Of a stretch of 64,000 nt of DNA, positions 4,743 to 48,438 are shown one piece after another. Source of the DNA: Pontimicrobium aquaticum (GTDB taxonomy: Bacteria; Bacteroidota; Bacteroidia; Flavobacteriales; Flavobacteriaceae); the NCBI RefSeq assembly GCF_005047595.1, contig NZ_SUPL01000001.1, forward strand, positions 124,001 through 188,000. Direction: 5' to 3'. The position numbers and the translations under genes were made by a program. Positions within the stretch are counted from its first letter, which is position 1. Every line of letters begins with the position of its first letter. Under the pieces are notes generated by a model. That model did not search any database and was not told where the DNA came from. It saw only the letters and a list, made by a program, of their open reading frames with translations.

Positions 4743-5282
4743 CTATTTTTTAGTAAGCTGAGCTTGTATTTGTTTAGTCCATGTGTCATAATCAGCATAA
4801 TCTTTATGAATAGTTATTTTACCATTTTTAATTTGAAGGACCGTTAGGAAAGGAATGGATACCATTATCTTTTCTGTGTTAGAGTTTTTATACCATGAAT
4901 TTGGTAGTATACTTTCATAAGTAGAGTTAATTACAACAAAAGAGCCTGAACTAAAAATTTTATCAACGTTTATACTAATGTATGGTGGTTTATTATTTTC
5001 AAATGCTTGATAAACTCCTTTAAACATAGTATAAACTTTTTCTTTGCCAACTGTTTCAAACCCGCTTTTAAACGCTTCGGCTGCTGTAGGGTCTTCAAAG
5101 TGAATGTTTTCATCGTAAAAAGTTTTCATTTTTTCAAAATCCCAATTGCCATAGGCTTTCATATATTCTAAAGCTATAGTCTCAGATGACTTTACTGCTG
5201 AAGATGTTTGACCGTAGGAGAAAAAAGAGGTAAGTAGTAAAAGTATAATTATTAAATTTGATTTGTTAAGTAGTATTCTCAT
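4743..5282 (-). CDS. Secreted SnoaL/NTF2-like protein
   Basis: 179 residues with a signal peptide ending at FFSYGQ. The mature protein follows the NTF2-like cone fold: an N-terminal helix with ALEYMKAYGNWDFEKMKTFYDENIHFEDP, then strands carrying the typical late DYADYDTW sequence. SnoaL-like proteins bind small molecules or act as hydrolases or isomerases. No ligand can be assigned here. It lies between the TolB-like propeller and a Zn-peptidase on the same strand. Confidence 0.8.
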   Translation of the reverse strand: MRILLNKSNLIIILLLLTSFFSYGQTSSAVKSSETIALEYMKAYGNWDFEKMKTFYDENIHFEDPTAAEAFKSGFETVGKEKVYTMFKGVYQAFENNKPPYISINVDKIFSSGSFVVINSTYESILPNSWYKNSNTEKIMVSIPFLTVLQIKNGKITIHKDYADYDTWTKQIQAQLTKK

Positions 5283-5613
5283 GAGGTTCTTTTTTTGTTA
5301 AAAATATTAGAATAGTTTGTGCTTGTTACAATAATGATTTGAATAGCTTAATTGATGAAGTTAAACATATTATCACTTAAATTTTTCTATTTATTGAAGT
5401 ATTTTTTTTAGCGCCTTGACTCTTATTAACTCACCCTAGTAGTTAATAATTTAACTATATAAATTCAATCCATTTATATTTTAAACTACTTTTCCGAATA
5501 AATTCATTGCAGATTTTTTATAAAATCCTAATTTATCTGATTAATATATAGGATTATGCTTAAAAGTTACGTTATTCTATTGTTTCTTTATATGTGTTGT
5601 GTTTACAACTAAC
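5283..5613. other. Intergenic region without a recognised gene
   Basis: 331 AT-rich bases between two minus-strand genes. All frames carry frequent stops. A weak inverted repeat (AATCCTA/TAGGATT) lies near 5523-5555. I see no RNA gene or terminator I would defend. Confidence 0.5.
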
Positions 5614-6522
5614 TTATTGCTTTTTAACTTTCTCCTCATACTTTTCTAAATAGCCACTTTCTTTTAAAAATCTATCATAATCTTCGATATTCAGAATATG
5701 GTTAACAGCTAATTTTTTGTCTTCAGCTTTGTTAAAATATGCTTTTACTATTTCATAACCAATCCAGTATCCTAAATCATGTGGTCTATCATCTTTACCA
5801 CTTACCCCATATAACCAATCTTGAAAATTATTTCCATGCATTACTTGTAAAAACTCTTTACATAGATTATCTTTATGTTTATTTCCATATCTGTTTGTGC
5901 CTCCATTAAGTTTTGTTCCAGTTATTAGTTCTGCAATAAAGTCTGCTGCTCCTTCTAGAATAGACTGTTGAAGTAGGTTTTTCTCTCCTTTAGGCCATTT
6001 TTGTTGGAAATGAATTGATTCATGAACAATTAATCCAGGAATATATTCAAAATTATTGTTATTTAGCATTTCAGCTCCAATTAGCAAACCGTTTTTAGAG
6101 ATAGTCCCCATAGTATTAAAACGTCCAACTACAAAATAAACTGGAGGATAAACAGTATAAGGGTACCAATATTCCAAAGCATAGAAATATGGTTTAACCT
6201 TTTTTTCAATGTCTTTAATTTTTTCTTCAATATCTCTTACTTTTTCATAATCTTGTTTTCGTCGAATTACCATATTCAATAAAGAATCTGCACTAATTAT
6301 TCTATTACGAATGAAACCCTGTAGCCCAGCAGTTCCATTTTTAATATAACCCTCAAAAGGGTTTTTATCAGAATCTTCATATGCGTCAAATGCTATCCAG
6401 AAATTTTGAATATCGGAAGTTTCAAATTTTGAATCTATTGGCTTTTGGGGGAAAGATTTCTCTTGGCTTATTACTTTTGCAAAGCTTAGCGTAATAAATG
6501 TTAATATTAATGCTCTTTTCAT
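5614..6522 (-). CDS. Putative secreted zinc peptidase (GldB/DUF2268-like)
   Basis: 302 residues with a signal peptide ending near KVISQ. A gluzincin-like site is visible: HESIH at residues 167-171, then E190 in ILEGAADFIAELI, the usual downstream third ligand plus helix. The arrangement resembles DUF2268-type predicted Zn proteases and the GldB-related family of Bacteroidota. It is not the essential gliding lipoprotein GldB itself, because there is no lipobox and no gld context. It has a shared intergenic motif about 130 bases upstream. The substrate is unknown. Confidence 0.72.
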   Translation of the reverse strand: MKRALILTFITLSFAKVISQEKSFPQKPIDSKFETSDIQNFWIAFDAYEDSDKNPFEGYIKNGTAGLQGFIRNRIISADSLLNMVIRRKQDYEKVRDIEEKIKDIEKKVKPYFYALEYWYPYTVYPPVYFVVGRFNTMGTISKNGLLIGAEMLNNNNFEYIPGLIVHESIHFQQKWPKGEKNLLQQSILEGAADFIAELITGTKLNGGTNRYGNKHKDNLCKEFLQVMHGNNFQDWLYGVSGKDDRPHDLGYWIGYEIVKAYFNKAEDKKLAVNHILNIEDYDRFLKESGYLEKYEEKVKKQ

Positions 6523-6649
6523 CGTATTTTCTAATTTTAAGTTATACTATAATGAGTCATATTATTTGCAATTGTTACTACCTTTTATTATAAACATATA
6601 TGAATAATTCAATAAGCAATATGAGCAGCTGATATATTGAAGCGAGAAT

Positions 6650-6667
6650 ATGATTTTATGACTTAAA
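6650..6667 (-). promoter_or_regulatory. Copy 1 of recurrent TTTAAAATCATAAAA-like upstream motif
   Basis: On the plus strand this reads ATGATTTTATGACTTAAA, a variant of the consensus TTTTATGATTTTAAA found five times between 6.6 and 13.5 kb. It lies about 130 bases before the ATG of the Zn peptidase (6522) and downstream of paiB. Confidence 0.4.
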
Positions 6668-6705
6668 GAAATAGTTAATTAAACAAAAGCTAACATTTTT
6701 AATTT

Positions 6706-7311
6706 TTATAAAGATTTTCTCATATAATCTGCAATAAGCTTTTCGTTATAAGTTCCACTATTAGAGAGAGAATCGATAATATTTTTTTGCTCTTTTTTAG
6801 TTTTATTCTGACTTAATTTTTCTTTGGCTTGTATTTCAGAGACATTTATCTCAAAAGCAACAATGCCATTTGCCATTTTAGTTTTAAAGTCTAATGGTAG
6901 TTTATTCCATTGCTGTTTATATGCAACCTCAAAATTTTCAATCGAATGCTCTAACAATTCAAAAGTTTTCTCTAAATCGGTAATAATTTTTCCTTTACCA
7001 TAGGCATGCACTGAAATATAATTCCAAGTGGGTACATTTAATTCCTTTTCGTAATTTTTGGGAGAAATATAGGCATGTGGTTCACTAAAAATCACCAAAA
7101 CATTTTTATCAATATCTCTCCATTGATTATTGGCTTTAGCAAAATGAGATGTTAATATAATATCACCTTGATCTTCTGAGACTACAAAAGGTAAATGTGT
7201 TGCAATTGGCAAATTTCTTTTTGATGTGATAATAGTTCCAAAACTAAATCGTTGTATAAATTCAACAATTTGTTTTTTGTTAGTTTGTAAGTTTTTTTTA
7301 GGAATATACAT
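6706..7311 (-). CDS. PaiB-like FMN-binding split-barrel protein
   Basis: 201 residues, close to the family's usual length. The N-terminus MYIPKKNLQTNKKQIVEFI and the sequence SFGTIITSKRNLPIATHLPFVV are typical of PaiB, an FMN-binding negative regulator first linked to sporulation and protease control in Bacillus. PNYEKELNVPTWNYISVHAYGKG is the conserved split-barrel core. It has no signal peptide and is one of the few cytoplasmic products in this stretch. It starts 4 bases after the M1 peptidase stop, so the two are likely co-transcribed. A scar of this gene start recurs at about 14733. Confidence 0.88.
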   Translation of the reverse strand: MYIPKKNLQTNKKQIVEFIQRFSFGTIITSKRNLPIATHLPFVVSEDQGDIILTSHFAKANNQWRDIDKNVLVIFSEPHAYISPKNYEKELNVPTWNYISVHAYGKGKIITDLEKTFELLEHSIENFEVAYKQQWNKLPLDFKTKMANGIVAFEINVSEIQAKEKLSQNKTKKEQKNIIDSLSNSGTYNEKLIADYMRKSL

Positions 7312-7315
7312 AACC

Positions 7316-8704
7316 TTATTTACTATAGTTTTTTACAATTTCCTTTATAATATTTTGTTTAAAATTTTTGTTGGATATGAATTCTTTTTCAAATGCTTCA
7401 AAAGCGTCTTTTTTAATGCCACTTTTAATTGCAGATTGTTTCCAGTGCTCTAATGTTAAAGTTTCATCGTAAGAAAGCTCTAACAAAGATTTAATGATAT
7501 GATTCATTTTATCTCTTCCAAATCTATCTTCAAAACATTTTAACATTAAAGGCGCTAAAATGTACCTGTATTTACTTCCTATATCACTTCTTTTTTTTAC
7601 CTCACTTAACGCTATAAATGTATCCTCTTCGTTAATGCTTTTAACTTGTTTTATTAGTGTTTCTTTTAAAAAATCCTTTCCACATAAATCTTCTGCTATG
7701 TTATAGGATAAGTATTCTGTAAACGATTCCCCCCAAAACCACTTTAACTTACCTGAATTTACATTGTTTCCAAAATAGTTATGTCCAAATTCATGCCCAA
7801 AATATCTAACATTATTATTTGTGAACTGACCTTCATCATCTAACATCTTGTCAAAATTTAATGCTGTGAAAGCAAATGTTGGATACGTGTTAAATCCCCA
7901 ACTGCTACCTTTTTTTCTTTTATTTATAGCTTTATGACTAACCAAATAAATTTTATCAGTAAATACTATACCAAGTTTGTTTGATAAATTAGATTTAATT
8001 ATCTCTATATTGCTAAACACTTTTTTTGAAGTTTCTTTTGTGATTTTTGTGTTGAGAATATAATTTCCATTGCTCTCCACAAAATCATAATTACCAGCAA
8101 ACAGTAATAAACGCTGTGCTTTTTTTGACACAAAGCGAGACGTTTTTCCTTTTTTAGGAGCACTACCATTAATAAAAATGGTAGTACCTCCTTTTATACT
8201 AATGGTCAAATCATACGTATAGCTATTAATTAATCTGTCATTAGTAACATCATAAATCACGGGATACCATTTGGTCTGCTCAGTGGCTCTTAAGGTTTCT
8301 CCGTTAAAAGCTATTATTCCTTTGTAATCAAATGCACTAAATTCGTCATTCTTATATATTGGAAAAGCACCTCTATAGGTGACATGAAGCTTACTAGGAA
8401 TATATGTTGTATCTGTTCTTAATGTATATTCAATAGCTTCTCCATTAGTATTTCCGTTATGATGACCATTATAGCTTATTAATTGATTTTTATCATCTTT
8501 AAAATATTTTATATTCATTCCTTTGTTGAGTAAAATGCGATACTCTTCAATTTTTGGAATGTTAGATAAATCAAAATCACAATTAATTAATCCAGAATTC
8601 ATATCTATTTCAACAGTTCCTTTTATATTAATTTGTGCATAACCAATACTAAACATTAGTAATGCCCAAATAATTATTACCTTTTTAAAGTTATTTTTTT
8701 TCAT
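7316..8704 (-). CDS. Secreted M1-family-like metallopeptidase
   Basis: 462 residues with a signal peptide ending at SIGYAQ. The gluzincin site is intact: HEFGH at 304-308 and E326 in WFWGESFTEYL, one residue closer than the usual 18-residue spacing. The N-terminal half resembles the beta-saddle of M1 enzymes, but the protein lacks the long C-terminal helical domain of full PepN. It probably trims peptides in the periplasm or outside the cell. The 5' end overlaps the 3' end of the frameshifted serine hydrolase by 14 bases. A copy of its C-terminal third lies at 14343-14711. Confidence 0.85.
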   Translation of the reverse strand: MKKNNFKKVIIIWALLMFSIGYAQINIKGTVEIDMNSGLINCDFDLSNIPKIEEYRILLNKGMNIKYFKDDKNQLISYNGHHNGNTNGEAIEYTLRTDTTYIPSKLHVTYRGAFPIYKNDEFSAFDYKGIIAFNGETLRATEQTKWYPVIYDVTNDRLINSYTYDLTISIKGGTTIFINGSAPKKGKTSRFVSKKAQRLLLFAGNYDFVESNGNYILNTKITKETSKKVFSNIEIIKSNLSNKLGIVFTDKIYLVSHKAINKRKKGSSWGFNTYPTFAFTALNFDKMLDDEGQFTNNNVRYFGHEFGHNYFGNNVNSGKLKWFWGESFTEYLSYNIAEDLCGKDFLKETLIKQVKSINEEDTFIALSEVKKRSDIGSKYRYILAPLMLKCFEDRFGRDKMNHIIKSLLELSYDETLTLEHWKQSAIKSGIKKDAFEAFEKEFISNKNFKQNIIKEIVKNYSK

Positions 8705-39989: not shown

Positions 39990-41087
39990 TTAGTTTTTAA
40001 GAGAAAAACTCGATTGAATAACAAATTCAATAACCTTTGTCTTAGATGTTCTGTAGGATTGTTTTGCCTGCAGATCAGTTTCAAAAAGGCGATTTAAATT
40101 ATTTCCTGATAAATCTTCTAACCTACTTTCTATAACAATTTTATAACGTCCTTTTTTCCATAACACATTAGGAACAAATAAGATACTAGTTGCTTTTTTT
40201 GATAGTTTAAACTCACCTTTAATGAGTTTATTCTCATCTAAAAACACCTGAATTGTTTCTTGTGCCAAAAAAGCATCTAATGATTCATTAAAAACAATTT
40301 TAAGGGGAGCTTTAGTTCTTTCCTGAGGTATTGTAAGTTTCCAATTATTAACAGAAGGACTTTTTGTATCCCTCTCGCTAACAATTATTTTTTTTATATA
40401 CTCCTTATCTAGCTCAACTCCCTCTGCATCAGTTAGTTTTTTAGAAATTTTAATTTCATAAATATTGTCTTTTTTTATAGGAATACCTAGCTTTTCATTC
40501 GGAATTAAGCCTTGTTTAATTCTTCCAGGATCTAACCATAAAGTCAACTCTGTATGGTCTGTATTCCATAATTCATTTTCAAGCGATAGGAATATATCTT
40601 CAGTTTTGTTTGTTAAACAATTTGTAACTGTAATAAAATTTAATATAGGTTGAGATTGCTGCATTGGTTTTGAAAAAACAAAATACATTTTTAATAAGTT
40701 TTCAGGAACTGTATCATTATATGGATGAATGGCAATAACTTTAGGTTGAATTTGATTTTCTGGCTTTGAAATACTAAATTCTTTATAAAGTTTACCATTT
40801 TTAAAAACCTCATAGTTCTCACCTACAGAGAAAGGAATTATTGGCGTAAATATAATTTCATCTCTATTCAATATGAATTCGCCAAGAACTGAACTTTTCT
40901 TTCCTTTTAGTTTTATTTGATATTGACTCTCAAAATCACCAGAAAATAAAACAGCAATAGCAAAACCTGTTTGATTATAGTCGATTCGTAATTGTGATTC
41001 GACTAACCTTTCTTGACAGGAAAGCATTAATAGAACACAAAAAAAGATCAAGAAACACCTACTCTTTTTAAAATATGTTGCGTTCAC
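39990..41087 (-). CDS. Lipoprotein with SbsA/Big_5-like Ig domains
   Basis: A GTG at 41087 gives VNATYFKKSRCFLIFF with lipobox LMLSC shortly after; an ATG at 41138 lies inside the preceding gene and would add 17 residues with no gain, so the GTG is preferred, though neither start is proven. Two Ig-like domains are visible: VIAIHPYNDTVPENLLKMYF with FSKPM, and a second around LKIVFNES. This matches the Big_5 (SbsA) family in surface proteins. Function unknown; probably envelope-attached and co-expressed with the propeller upstream. Confidence 0.72.
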   Translation of the reverse strand: MNATYFKKSRCFLIFFCVLLMLSCQERLVESQLRIDYNQTGFAIAVLFSGDFESQYQIKLKGKKSSVLGEFILNRDEIIFTPIIPFSVGENYEVFKNGKLYKEFSISKPENQIQPKVIAIHPYNDTVPENLLKMYFVFSKPMQQSQPILNFITVTNCLTNKTEDIFLSLENELWNTDHTELTLWLDPGRIKQGLIPNEKLGIPIKKDNIYEIKISKKLTDAEGVELDKEYIKKIIVSERDTKSPSVNNWKLTIPQERTKAPLKIVFNESLDAFLAQETIQVFLDENKLIKGEFKLSKKATSILFVPNVLWKKGRYKIVIESRLEDLSGNNLNRLFETDLQAKQSYRTSKTKVIEFVIQSSFSLKN

Positions 41088-41100
41088 AAAAAAGTAATTA

Positions 41101-42216
41101 TTATAAACTTCTATTTTGTAAAGATAAATGGCCTTCACTTCTTATTAAAAGTAGTGCATTATTATCATCATATTTATCCATTTGTTCAACATTAACATAA
41201 GGAAGGTTTACAGCTTTAACTCCACCAACCTTTCTTCCTAATTCTCTAGTAACAACTGGTTTTGTCATAGAGCCTTTAAAATCAATAATATCAGAAAGAT
41301 TAATGCGTTTTACTGGAGTATCAGTATTTGACAAAAAGAACTTTAATTCTTTACCTTTTTTAAAACTGATAATATCTATAGGTGCATTTCCTGAACCGAG
41401 TTCGGAAACGGTTCTACCTTTTATATGCTTACCATTTTCTAGTTTATCAATAGGAAATAAAACCAGAGGTGTACAAGTATAACTAGCTAATATAAACTCC
41501 TTACCTTTAATCGTTGTAATATCAAATGTTTCGATAGGCGCATTAGTTTCATATCTTCCGTGAGCTGCATGATATATTTCTAAGGTTGAAAAATCTTGCT
41601 TATTATTGAAAGGAAAAGGAATACTGCTAAAAGAAGAACTAAATTCTTTATTTGATAATCCTGACACAAAAACTTTGCCATTGTAATATTTCATATCAGA
41701 TATAGCCCATCTTCTATGAGCGTAATAACCTTTTGTTTTAGGAGATTTAGAAATAGGGTTGGTTAATGTTGTTTTTGCATAGCTAACATTATTAAGAGAA
41801 ACATTTTCTAGCTTTCCATTTGTTAGTCTTAATAAAACAGGAGTGCCATTTTTAGTTTGAATAGAAAAATAAACATTTTTAGAGATAGGGTTTACAGACA
41901 TGTCTGTAATATTTATATTCTTTACAGTTGTTCCTAAAGCTGAGGCAATTTTCTCATCAAAAGAATCAAGAGCAATATTTTCAGGTTTATTTTTTGCAAT
42001 ATTATCTTTTGTGTCAAGAGCAAAAATGGTAGCACTATCAGAATCTCCAATAAATAATATTCCTTCTGGACCAAAACTTAAGCGATAAATTGATTTTATA
42101 TTGGGATTTCCTGTAATAAAGTTTTCAGTTAATGAAGAATTTTCAGTCTTATTGGCCGCAGCAACTGTTACTAAAATAGCAACGAGTAAACTAAATGTGC
42201 AAATAATTTTTTTCAT
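41101..42216 (-). CDS. Secreted beta-propeller-like protein, unknown function
   Basis: 371 residues from the ATG at 42216, chosen because MKKIICTFSLLVAILVTVAAA is a clean signal peptide; the ATG at 42255 would add 13 residues before it. The body is strand-rich with a GPEGILFIGDSDSATIFALD start, resembling NHL/PQQ-like propellers, but blades are irregular and I cannot assign a family. The 3' end overlaps the only ATG start of the next gene. Confidence 0.72.
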   Translation of the reverse strand: MKKIICTFSLLVAILVTVAAANKTENSSLTENFITGNPNIKSIYRLSFGPEGILFIGDSDSATIFALDTKDNIAKNKPENIALDSFDEKIASALGTTVKNINITDMSVNPISKNVYFSIQTKNGTPVLLRLTNGKLENVSLNNVSYAKTTLTNPISKSPKTKGYYAHRRWAISDMKYYNGKVFVSGLSNKEFSSSFSSIPFPFNNKQDFSTLEIYHAAHGRYETNAPIETFDITTIKGKEFILASYTCTPLVLFPIDKLENGKHIKGRTVSELGSGNAPIDIISFKKGKELKFFLSNTDTPVKRINLSDIIDFKGSMTKPVVTRELGRKVGGVKAVNLPYVNVEQMDKYDDNNALLLIRSEGHLSLQNRSL

Positions 42217-42268
42217 GAAATAATTTTTATAATTAGTTTTTCTGTAGTTCAACAATCTATTATATCTA

Positions 42269-43823: not shown

Positions 43824-44222
43824 TTACCAAATTGTCCCAATTCCTTTATGTACTGCTTTGAGTAATTTAAATGGTTCATGCCCTATATCATTAACAATTA
43901 TTATTTTAATTTTTTGATTATTATATGGATTGAGCTTATTCATGACATTTGACCAGTTTTTTCCTCTTTCTATACGTGTGTTCCCAATAACTCCTTTTAT
44001 GCTTTTTAAAGAGATCGTATCATTAGCACCTATTATAATTCGTATTGGGATTTGATTTACCGCTTTTATTGCTTTTTTAAGGTTTGGAGAAAATAACATT
44101 CCAGCTGCTTTATTTGGATTATTTTTAAACTGGATTGTTCCGTTAAAAATAGAATCTCTAACAATAGACTTAAATCCATATGGCCAATTAACTTCATCAT
44201 TAGGAAAAGGTTTACTTTGCAT
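43824..44222 (-). pseudogene. C-terminal half of an alpha/beta hydrolase
   Basis: 132 residues with no signal peptide and no nucleophile region. It holds only the last parts of a hydrolase: IRIIIGANDTISL, with the acid, and NDIGHEPFKLL, with the catalytic His. An in-frame stop lies just before the ATG. It probably is the remnant of a truncated gene; an expressed protein of this form could not be a working hydrolase. Confidence 0.55.
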
Positions 44223-44405: not shown

Positions 44406-45788
44406 TTACTTATGTACTTTAAAGTTGACAGGAGCTTCAATTATTGCTGGTGAACTAAATAATTTAGGATTAGGAGCTGTAAGATAATTTATCATTACTG
44501 GTTTTATTTCATCCCATACTTCCTTGAATAAATCATGAGAGCCATTTTTTACTCTTATAGTATGAGCATTTTTAAAATGCTTCATTATATCTTGAGTATT
44601 TGATGGTGGTGTTCTAGCGTCTTGACTACCATAGATTAATACAATTGGAATTTCGGTATAAAAATCACTTGAAAGTTCATTTGATAGATTTAAGTTTGGT
44701 AATGAGTCGCAGACCTTAAATCTAATACTATTAAGAGCATCTCCCAAAATAGCTTTCTTACTTTGTTTTTTAAGTTTAAGCCATCTATCAGCTTTAGCCC
44801 CAGAAGCACAATCGGTTAATACTGGCATTAAATTCTCATCTTGATTAACACGTATATTAATTGCTCTTTGAGCTAGCCAACTATAATCACCTTCTTGCAT
44901 CTGAAGATATCTATAAGGCAGCTCCCTGTATTCTTTTCTACCTAAAAGCGAAGCAGTTATTAGCTGCAAATCGTAACCTCCTACGACAATTTGAACCCAT
45001 TCATTCGTTTCTGGGTGTTTTACATCAACTTTAATGGGTGAGGTCTCTAAAGATTGTATTTGCCTTTTAACCATCTTAATAAAAGATGGTATTTTATTAT
45101 TTAAAATAGTGTCACGAGACACCATTTTCGACAATCCTTTTAGAATTCTATCTACATTTAAAGGTAGTTTTACTGTATGTGTTAAACCTTCAGGACTATC
45201 CACCAAAATCCTATCTACATGTTTAGGATAGTTTTTTGCATAAGTAAGCCCATGATGACTTCCAAAACTTCCCCCAAACAGCATGATTTTATCATGATTT
45301 AAACTCTTTCTTATATCATTAATATCATCCGCCATAGAAATAACATTATACGATGATAAGTCTCTAGATTTTTCCTGCCAAAACTCTTTACAACCATTAA
45401 TATAATCTCTATATACTTGAGAAAATTTTTCTATTCTCAATGGTTCGTCTAATGGAAGATTAAAGGAACCAGGGCATGTTAAATTTGGAGTAGCCAACCC
45501 ATTACCCCTTTGTTCTACTATAACAACATCACTTTTTAATGTAAAATCATATAAACTCGGCACAATGCTTTTTATCTCTTGAAGAATTGAAGGATTGTCC
45601 CCTGGTCCGCCATCAAGTAAAAAAATAGGAGGTAAAGGATTTGGGTTCTTCGTTTTTATTATAAAAAAAGGGATTTCAATGAGTCTAGAATCTTTCTTTT
45701 CTCTGTTTTCCTTTACTTTAATGCTTTTTAACTCACCTTGAAAAATTTCTCCCGATTCAGAATTGAAGTTAATAAGTCCTTTTTTTAG
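44406..45788 (-). CDS. S33/TAP-like alpha/beta hydrolase domain without its own start codon
   Basis: The open frame runs from 45788 to 44406 (460 codons) directly out of the M61 gene end in the -1 frame, with no ATG, GTG or TTG until a GTG at 45563. That GTG lies after the oxyanion motif FLLDGGPGD, so it cannot start a working enzyme. Motifs present: GGPG, nucleophile in LFGGSFGSHHG, acid in IYGSQDARTPP, His in VKNGSHDLF. The family (proline iminopeptidase/TAP) normally has a signal peptide; here only that is missing. See the finding on the slippery junction. Confidence 0.75.
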   Translation of the reverse strand, partial: LKKGLINFNSESGEIFQGELKSIKVKENREKKDSRLIEIPFFIIKTKNPNPLPPIFLLDGGPGDNPSILQEIKSIVPSLYDFTLKSDVVIVEQRGNGLATPNLTCPGSFNLPLDEPLRIEKFSQVYRDYINGCKEFWQEKSRDLSSYNVISMADDINDIRKSLNHDKIMLFGGSFGSHHGLTYAKNYPKHVDRILVDSPEGLTHTVKLPLNVDRILKGLSKMVSRDTILNNKIPSFIKMVKRQIQSLETSPIKVDVKHPETNEWVQIVVGGYDLQLITASLLGRKEYRELPYRYLQMQEGDYSWLAQRAINIRVNQDENLMPVLTDCASGAKADRWLKLKKQSKKAILGDALNSIRFKVCDSLPNLNLSNELSSDFYTEIPIVLIYGSQDARTPPSNTQDIMKHFKNAHTIRVKNGSHDLFKEVWDEIKPVMINYLTAPNPKLFSSPAIIEAPVNFKVHK

Positions 45789-47299
45789 TTTTTTTTACTT
45801 AGTTCATTACCGTAAATACTATTTATTATATCTTGTTCAAAAGCGGAAGTATTTATTTTCTTCTGAACTTGTAATTTATTATCCTTGATTTCTGAAGAGA
45901 AACCAACTCGAGACATGTAATTTTCAATAGGAATACGCTTTGTTCCGTAGATATAATCTTTAAAAAACTCTGTTTGATCTTTACCACTTAAATTTGACAG
46001 CATTTCCTGTAAATCTTGTATTGTATAAGCTTTATCACTGCCAGAATAATTCTGGAACAAGTTTCTCATTAAATCATCTAAACTTTTAGTATTATTGGAA
46101 TTGAGCCGTATTTCTATATCTTGAGCTATTCCATTAAACATCCCTCCTGCATAAATTAGCCCCCAATGATTATGTTTTTCTTCTCCTTGTACTGCAGGAA
46201 TCTTCCCTAAACCATCATCATTTATATAACTTTGGTAAAATAAATCATCTAAAATACTTAGGAATTCATCTTCAGACAAATACCCAATACTGAATAAGGC
46301 TTTTAGAGTATAATAATTACTATACCCTTCTTTAAACCATTCAACGGTATTAGGGTTTTTAGGAAAAAATGATTTGCCATTCCACAAATGGAAAAACTCA
46401 TGAGCAAAAATAAAATTAGCTATATTTTTATCCATACCTTTTGCATCCTTTTTCACCAATAAACTTATGTTATTTCCAATAGCTTCACCATCTGTTTTAC
46501 TCCAAGAATTAATAAATACGGTAAAGGTTGAAGAATCTAGCTTTGGGAGTCCTTTCATTAGCTTTTCATAATAATTTAAAACTCCAGAAGCCATATTGGC
46601 ATAATACTCTTTTTTAGCCAAAACGTCATCACCTCCTAGGGCAAAAACAAGCTTAAAACCACCCTTGTCTATTAAAATTTCTTCCTGAGTTCCAGCAAAA
46701 AACATAGATTGGGTAAGTTCCTCATAATTATGTACAATATAAGAATGCTTATTATTTGGTTTTGGAGTCCATGACGTGGTTAACTTCCAGGAATCATCAA
46801 TTTTGAAATTAACCTCGATATTAGTTCTATCAGAACCGTTTAAAATCAAAAAAGCTCTTGTCGTAGAAAACACACCCCAATCTGTATTAAAAGCAACGCC
46901 ATCTATTCCTCCACCCCATCTATGTTCATCATGAGTAAGATTTATGTTATACTTTAATGTTACTCTTCCTTTTTGCGGTGTTTTTATCAACCATTTAGCG
47001 CCTCCAAGTTCACTTATTTCAACAGGGGCATTCTCTTTATTTAATAACTGTAAATCTGAAACAAAAGTAGCCCACCTATTAGGTAATTGATATGCTCCTG
47101 GAGCCATATATAATGTATCATTTTTTGGAATGAATGAAACCACTATTTGGGCTTTTTTATTATGGTTTTTATTTATAGTTATTGTATATTGTGTTATATT
47201 TTCTCTACCATTTTTCGATATATTATTTAAAGAAATCTGATTAAAAGCATTTGAATAACTAAAGGCTAAAAAAGAAAAAATGATAATTAAATGTTTCAT
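45785..47299 (-). CDS. Secreted M61-like (glycyl aminopeptidase family) metallopeptidase
   Basis: 504 residues with a signal peptide (MKHLIIIFSFLAFSYSNAF). The zinc site HEFFHLWNG (H300, E301, H304) with E324 in WFKEGYSNYY is the M61 signature. The usual PDZ domain is absent. The last codons are AGT AAA AAA AAC TAA, a classic -1 slippery heptamer (A AAA AAC) immediately before the stop, and the hydrolase domain opens in the -1 frame at this point. A -33/-7-like promoter lies upstream. Confidence 0.88.
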   Translation of the reverse strand: MKHLIIIFSFLAFSYSNAFNQISLNNISKNGRENITQYTITINKNHNKKAQIVVSFIPKNDTLYMAPGAYQLPNRWATFVSDLQLLNKENAPVEISELGGAKWLIKTPQKGRVTLKYNINLTHDEHRWGGGIDGVAFNTDWGVFSTTRAFLILNGSDRTNIEVNFKIDDSWKLTTSWTPKPNNKHSYIVHNYEELTQSMFFAGTQEEILIDKGGFKLVFALGGDDVLAKKEYYANMASGVLNYYEKLMKGLPKLDSSTFTVFINSWSKTDGEAIGNNISLLVKKDAKGMDKNIANFIFAHEFFHLWNGKSFFPKNPNTVEWFKEGYSNYYTLKALFSIGYLSEDEFLSILDDLFYQSYINDDGLGKIPAVQGEEKHNHWGLIYAGGMFNGIAQDIEIRLNSNNTKSLDDLMRNLFQNYSGSDKAYTIQDLQEMLSNLSGKDQTEFFKDYIYGTKRIPIENYMSRVGFSSEIKDNKLQVQKKINTSAFEQDIINSIYGNELSKKN

Positions 47300-47403: not shown

Positions 47404-48438
47404 CTATAGTGTATCAATATACTTTGAAGGCGTGGTTCCTGTTTCTTTTTTAAAAGCTTTATAAAATGCCGAGGTTGATTTAAAACCTACTTTATTGGCA
47501 AGCCCTTTAATAGTTAAAGATTGGTGGCTATTTTGGCGTATTTCTTTAATAAATTCTTTTACACGGATACTATTTATAAATTCATTGAAATTTTGATTGA
47601 ATGCTGTATGTATAAATGCACTCACTTTATAATAAGGCATATTAATTTTATCTGACAAAACACGAATATTTAAATCTGCATTCTCGTAAATTTTCTGTTC
47701 TATAATTGTCTTTACAAGCGTATCTGGATCTATTTCTATTTCAAGTTTTGTGTTTGCAAAAGACGTCCTTTTTTGTGGAACCTTTTTTAAAGTAGCATAC
47801 AAATAGATGATGCTAATTCCTGTAAAAAACAATGTAATATTAAGATAAACACTTGATGGCAATGGATTGAAAATATGTCGATATAAAAAAATAAGTAGGT
47901 TAACCCCCCAAGATAAAGAAACACCAAAAATCAATACTCTTGAAAAGAAGCTTAATTTTTGCTTTCCCCTTTTAACCAAAAAGAATATTTTAAAAAGATA
48001 GATAGCAAAATACAGATTCCATACTACTTGATATGGCATTCCTTCTAGTACCGATTGACTATTGTATCCAAAAATATTAAATGAATATATTAAAGAAAAT
48101 ACTACTAGAAAGAAATAGCAAAAAAAAGGTATTAAATGCTTTAACCATTCTTGGAGGTTTACCTCTTTAAAAAGTGTTTTCACATATACATATAATGTAG
48201 AAGCCAAAATAAACATAAAGGCATTTGATATAGTTTCAAAGCCATAAAACAATTCGCTGTAACCGCTATGATTTAGAATGGTATTTAAAGTTATCCAACT
48301 TAAAATAAAAAAGATAGCTGATAGAAAATAACGTTGACTAGAGTGTTTCTTCCCTCTACTAGTAAGTTGAAATATTGACAGCAAGAATAAATTACCTACA
48401 CCTATAATATTTAACAATAATGTTATGTCTTTTCCCAT
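47404..48438 (-). CDS. Membrane-tethered AraC-family transcriptional regulator
   Basis: 344 residues. The N-terminal 220 hold six or seven hydrophobic helices (starting ITLLLNIIGVGNLFLLSIF). The C-terminal domain is AraC-type, with INMPYYKVSAFIHTAFNQNF and GFKSTSAFYKAFKKETGTTP. It resembles the regulator at 2215-3363 in layout and lies at the right end of the exported-enzyme island. It sits upstream of the M61-hydrolase unit on the same strand and may control it or the island. Target genes are not known. Confidence 0.9.
   Translation of the reverse strand: MGKDITLLLNIIGVGNLFLLSIFQLTSRGKKHSSQRYFLSAIFFILSWITLNTILNHSGYSELFYGFETISNAFMFILASTLYVYVKTLFKEVNLQEWLKHLIPFFCYFFLVVFSLIYSFNIFGYNSQSVLEGMPYQVVWNLYFAIYLFKIFFLVKRGKQKLSFFSRVLIFGVSLSWGVNLLIFLYRHIFNPLPSSVYLNITLFFTGISIIYLYATLKKVPQKRTSFANTKLEIEIDPDTLVKTIIEQKIYENADLNIRVLSDKINMPYYKVSAFIHTAFNQNFNEFINSIRVKEFIKEIRQNSHQSLTIKGLANKVGFKSTSAFYKAFKKETGTTPSKYIDTL

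Follow-up and report, generated by a model that had tools for sequence, protein, structure and literature searches.

A start-less TAP-like hydrolase frame behind an M61 peptidase gene of Pontimicrobium aquaticum, probably a recent 5' truncation rather than a programmed frameshift

In the 64,000-nucleotide stretch of Pontimicrobium aquaticum DNA analyzed here (the window), a gene for an M61 metallopeptidase ends on a slippery heptamer, and the -1 frame continues directly into a hydrolase domain. Is this domain reached by programmed frameshifting, or has an ordinary gene lost its beginning? The preliminary description favored the former, proposing a secreted two-enzyme polyprotein, and named a dead 5'-truncated gene among the alternatives. 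We found that the hydrolase is probably the result of a recent 5' truncation of an ordinary operon gene, although the evidence that the gene is dead is mixed.

The M61 gene and the frame that follows it

The M61 (glycyl aminopeptidase-like) metallopeptidase gene is located on the minus strand at 45785..47299 and encodes 504 amino acids. Its family assignment was confirmed by matches above the Pfam cut-offs to PF17899 (57.2 bits, cut-off 23) and PF05299 (28.1 bits, cut-off 22). Residues H300, E301, H304 and E324 are invariant in the six aligned rows, and we take the HExxH sequence formed by the first three to be the zinc motif. The protein is complete at its C-terminus, where it aligns to the end with five relatives, and it carries, as had been proposed, a signal-like N-terminus; here and throughout, signal peptides and signal-like N-termini were judged by eye. 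Upstream of this gene is an AraC-type regulator (47404..48438, minus strand; PF12833 and PF00165).

As described earlier, the M61 gene ends with AGT AAA AAA AAC TAA (45799-45785, minus strand). The sequence places its TAA stop at 45785..45787 and a run of eight adenines (A8) at 45789..45796, which together with the next C provides the slippery heptamer A AAA AAC (45794-45788) just before the 0-frame stop. A frame scan showed that the last upstream stop in the hydrolase frame is a TAA at 45795..45797 on the same strand; therefore, a -1 slip is possible solely within the M61 codons AAA AAA AAC.

The full hydrolase domain said to follow the heptamer in the -1 frame is indeed present. The TAP-like/S33-type alpha/beta hydrolase frame is open from 45794 to 44406 (44406..45794, minus strand; 462 codons plus a stop), and the 460 codons that lie after the M61 stop are the longest such extension among the 48 window genes. 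This open frame is genuine coding sequence. In a Pfam scan taken from residue 4 onward, PF00561 (69.4 bits, cut-off 25.8), PF08386 (24.9 bits, cut-off 21) and PF12146 all scored above their cut-offs, in agreement with the S33-type assignment. The GGPG and GGSFGS motifs and the catalytic Asp and His are also present and conserved: D392 and H420 are invariant and S176 occurs in at least 90% of 19 rows, and we take S176, D392 and H420 to be the putative Ser-Asp-His catalytic residues.

The frame has neither a start codon nor a signal peptide at its beginning. The first ATG, GTG or TTG is a GTG at 45561..45563 (minus strand), which, as the preliminary description had stated, comes only beyond the GGPG motif, and initiation at this codon would drop the N-terminal part of the hydrolase fold. 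AlphaFold modeled all 462 residues with confidence (mean pLDDT 92.8, pTM 0.92) and placed the first predicted strand at residues 6-11, so that the modeled hydrolase appears complete apart from its missing N-terminus. The extent of the loss can be read from the conserved Glu of the GE motif, which is preceded by 20 residues in the window frame, 48 in the second copy of the gene in this genome, and 44-51 in the other close relatives (counted from the listed start; for L019, L043 and L046 the count begins at the Met that precedes the hydrophobic stretch). This difference indicates that approximately 24-31 residues, comprising the start and the export signal, were lost from the window hydrolase, and the earlier remark that it lacks the signal peptide of its relatives was correct.

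The hydrolase resembles the large secreted TAP-like hydrolases. The best Foldseek match was TnmK1 (8e18; E 3.0e-18, TM 0.63), and M. tuberculosis Hip1 (7sfm, 5ugq) gave TM values of 0.65-0.69 and a profile match with E 7.9e-14 over 179 positions. However, the fold matches to TnmK1 and Hip1 have only 12-15% identity, with an rmsd of ~6-8 Å.

Arrangement in relatives and in the second copy

The eight close relatives of the window hydrolase are 49-59% identical to it, with 59% for the second copy in the same genome and 49-53% for the seven from outside this genome (L042-L048). In five of these seven the hydrolase is immediately preceded by an M61 gene of the same orientation, namely in L043 and the loci with the paired labels L016/L042, L017/L045, L018/L044 and L020/L048. 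The preliminary description had looked to relatives for in-frame M61-hydrolase fusions, and none was found: in all five the two enzymes are encoded by separate genes, and each hydrolase has its own start (possibly TTG in L045/L017) and a signal-like N-terminus, with a position relative to the M61 stop that varies between a 4-base overlap and a gap of ~25 bases. M61 and hydrolase are ~16 kb apart in L047/L019, and in L046 no M61 gene was found within the 8818 bases examined. The hydrolase N-termini of all eight close relatives are signal-like by eye, and the -1 junction of the window occurs in none of the eight.

The second pair in this genome is located on another contig (locus L014), where the hydrolase (5267-6739; 59% identical) is followed by the M61 gene (6747-8252; 48% identical). 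The order is thus reversed with respect to the window, and the two are separate genes, each with a start of its own and a signal-like N-terminus. Just upstream of this second hydrolase, an esterase-like gene (by eye) at L002 is split over two frames (365-955 and 925-1344), probably because it too is a recent pseudogene or was assembled wrongly. It breaks near a T5 and not at a long run, and so gives no reason to suspect homopolymer errors in general.

The order regulator, M61, hydrolase is shared by three relatives, in which the regulator was recognized by PF12833 (L016) or by similar sequence (L018 and L020). The window locus resembles an AraC - M61 - TAP-like hydrolase operon of Flavobacteriaceae, as in Ulvibacterium marinum (L042/L016) and Muriicola sp. 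Z0-33 (L048/L020), in gene order, regulator family and enzyme families; identity to these two operons is 51-52% for the hydrolase and 46-47% for M61. The difference is that a start and a signal-like N-terminus are present in their hydrolases and missing from the window copy. M61 frequently occurs without this hydrolase. M61 matches at 1e-40 were obtained in 18 of 397 genomes of the family, and 6 of those 18 also had a hydrolase match at 1e-60. In the five other genomes of the genus there was no hydrolase match at 1e-60, and one of them had a partial, weaker M61 match.

A conserved M61-hydrolase fusion was also sought more widely, and none was seen in 57 loci or in the family, order and relatives genome samples (397, 395 and 395 genomes, overlapping, with only matches above set thresholds counted). 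The 57 loci were found with two peptide patterns, an earlier scan with a single protein having given none, and they include one, L098, for which no hydrolase match was obtained. An M61 match is present in 5 of the 57, as a separate gene in each. The hydrolase matches in the genome samples lie in open frames of 484-513 amino acids, which are too short for such a fusion; the exceptions are the window copy (462) and one match of 636 amino acids, whose extra part is C-terminal. Some open frames at distant, GC-rich loci extend far upstream, and no M61 match was found there with the window M61 as query at E 1e-5, a search that could miss a very distant M61. Two distant hydrolases, at L052 (3878-5785; Winogradskyella luteola) and L103 (1057-2967; same order), have a C-terminal extension that appears ankyrin-repeat-like by eye. 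Literature searches linking peptidase M61, alpha/beta hydrolases and operons in Flavobacteriaceae returned nothing, and the titles and abstract openings of papers on M61 or glycyl aminopeptidase fusions mention no such fusion.

The slippery heptamer and its surroundings

Heptamers of the form X XXY YYZ are a feature of bacterial programmed -1 frameshifts, such as that in dnaX, and the window site resembles those of IS transposases in that the heptamer stands directly before the 0-frame stop. At 30% GC, the composition of the window, such a heptamer is unremarkable. The 17,811 codons of the 48 window genes contain 255 in-frame X XXY YYZ heptamers, 21 of which are A AAA AAC; in four genes such a heptamer falls in the last three codons and in seven it falls no more than five codons from the stop, with the M61 gene included in both counts. 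On the two strands of the window AAAAAAC was seen 73 times versus 58.6 expected, a count reached by 3 of 100 shuffles.

The stimulatory hairpin for which a search downstream of the heptamer had been suggested was not found. When hairpin folding of the RNA was compared with that of shuffles, the 108 nt from the stop gave -10.7 kcal/mol with a z of +0.72, and 158 of 200 shuffles folded at least as well. Upstream, none of five motifs for an SD-like stimulator is present in the 36 nt up to the first base of the heptamer. According to the part of the source available (PMC4066793), A_AAA_AAC is a low-efficiency heptamer in E. coli, yet it is among the motifs that exceed 0.10% without a stimulator; the same part reports proven frameshift sites without a known stimulator, among them one IS cluster with A_AAA_AAC for which a stimulator is not established. 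The missing stimulator consequently only makes the frameshift claim less likely. Antonov and colleagues found 4010 pseudogene clusters versus 146 recoding clusters in 1106 genomes, a base rate that favors truncation over recoding. Frame transitions outside any cluster they explain by sequencing error, indels of recent date or false positives, while also allowing for recoding in an orphan gene (PMC3711429).

The secreted polyprotein of ~960 residues made by programmed -1 frameshifting is thus not supported, since the two enzymes are separate in the five relatives with M61 directly upstream, an outcome that the preliminary description had itself named as refuting, and in the second pair of the same genome, the hairpin and the SD-like element were not found, and the motif is described as of low efficiency in E. 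coli. Unlike programmed -1 frameshifts, the window site has no stimulator that we could find and is not conserved, and the relatives make two separate proteins.

Truncation and its alternatives

The window hydrolase (C1) was compared with its sister, the second genome copy (C12), for signs of decay. At otherwise invariant columns, private changes were found at 12 of 127 positions in C1 and at 1 of 116 in C12 (Fisher p 0.003). By the same measure no difference was seen between the two copies of M61 (29/153 versus 28/152, p 1.0). The C1 value, 9.4%, is the second highest of nine rows, the seven other rows ranging from 0 to 12.9%; in four of those seven the presence of a close sister depresses the value. 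With 2 of 10 outgroups the Tajima statistic was above 3.84, the excess being in C1; for M61 this was so with none of 5. The terminal branches are nearly equal (0.54 for C1 and 0.50 for C12), with a support of 93/99 for the C1-C12 pairing, just below the tool's own mark. In its 462 codons C1 has no stop; 217 of the 4158 possible single changes would create one, and ~19 unconstrained substitutions (1.4% divergence) would be expected to yield a stop. The decay measures for C1 therefore point both ways and fall short of proving that the gene is dead; given the intact frame and the near-equal branches, the signal was either lost recently or lost without disabling the gene. The earlier alternative of a dead 5'-truncated gene fits best as regards truncation, with start and signal both lost, and is left in doubt as regards deadness. 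The gene resembles recent 5'-truncated pseudogenes in these losses and in the presence of an intact second copy, and is unlike them in showing no further disabling change.

We consider it reasonably probable that the hydrolase is a recent 5' truncation of an ordinary operon gene and not a programmed frameshift. The ancestor would have possessed an AraC - M61 - hydrolase operon, with both enzymes separate, closely spaced and exported. A deletion of ~24-31 codons, together with any intergenic bases, would have removed the start codon and the export signal of the hydrolase, so that the folded domain would come to abut the M61 stop in the -1 frame while M61 remained intact. The remnant is most likely recent, non-exported and largely unexpressed, and may be tolerated thanks to the intact 59%-identical copy on another contig. 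The heptamer at the junction would mirror the A-rich composition of a genome with 30% GC. The separate genes in relatives, the absent N-terminus, the intact remainder and the high heptamer background are direct observations, and beyond these we infer the deletion event, its recency, the absent expression and the back-up by the second copy. If this ordinary account is true, the locus adds to the known cases of genes at an early stage of loss, here with a probable back-up copy, and warns against reading much into slippery heptamers at the ends of genes when a genome is rich in AT.

Several observations do not sit easily with truncation. C1 is free of stops, its branch length is close to that of C12, and its private changes are within the range of the other rows. 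Moreover, the cut is located at the edge of the domain, with the first strand starting at residue 6, as a selected fusion would require. This position and the stop-free frame are consistent with the view, close to another of the earlier alternatives, that the deletion fused M61 and the hydrolase, respecting domain edges on both sides, and that the A run was miscounted in the assembly or varies between cells or strains by indels, possibly as phase variation. The M61 signal would then restore export of the hydrolase, and A/T runs of at least 8 are common (the window has 34, of which 26 fall within its 48 genes). However, runs of at least 9 are nearly absent (2 in the window), no fusion was seen, with M61 separate in 5 of the 57 loci and the sampled hydrolase frames too short, and we regard this explanation as unlikely. 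If the fusion were true, a deletion would have given rise to a new bifunctional enzyme that is secreted and bridged by slippage, which would be unusual.

The intact frame might also be maintained by slippage, either of the ribosome (-1, at A AAA AAC) or of RNA polymerase (at A8), yielding a minor but useful exported M61-hydrolase. The heptamer occupies the sole three codons in which a slip could work, and the stimulator-free activity of A_AAA_AAC above 0.10% in E. coli and the proven IS cluster (PMC4066793, in the part available) argue for this explanation, and the IS cluster also counts against truncation. In addition, the available part of a further article states that single-base insertions during transcription cluster in A/T runs and increase with run length (PMC5574713). 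The lack of conservation in relatives, the absence of a hairpin and of an SD-like element near the heptamer, the low efficiency of the motif in E. coli (PMC4066793, same part) and the abundance of chance heptamers make it rather unlikely. A secreted two-enzyme M61-hydrolase whose dose is set by slippage or run-length variation at A8, an operon turned by one deletion into a frame-switchable fusion, seems to us quite unlikely; slippage would in that case substitute for the lost export signal. Finally, the hydrolase might be initiated at a non-standard codon after M61 termination, for example ATT at 45773, and now be cytoplasmic. ATT codons are present near the beginning of the frame, with A-rich sequence upstream, and the closely spaced genes of the relatives (4-base overlap to ~25 bases) are compatible with this idea. 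However, non-standard start codons are rare and weak, the ATT at 45773 is residue 8 and falls within the predicted first strand, and the N-termini of 8/8 close relatives are signal-like by eye. We consider this explanation very improbable, although Kozak-like initiation is reported in Flavobacterium johnsoniae in the available part of PMC6847099.

Downstream of the hydrolase, an ORF of 132 amino acids (43824-44222, minus strand) matched nothing in Pfam or NCBIfam, and a search of the genome gave no paralogue of it. Two further minus-strand ORFs, 41101-42255 and 39990-41138, overlap by 38 bases. We considered whether they form one broken gene; both begin, by eye, with a signal-like N-terminus and appear to be distinct genes, and the ORF at 39990-41138 shows a weak match to Big_5.
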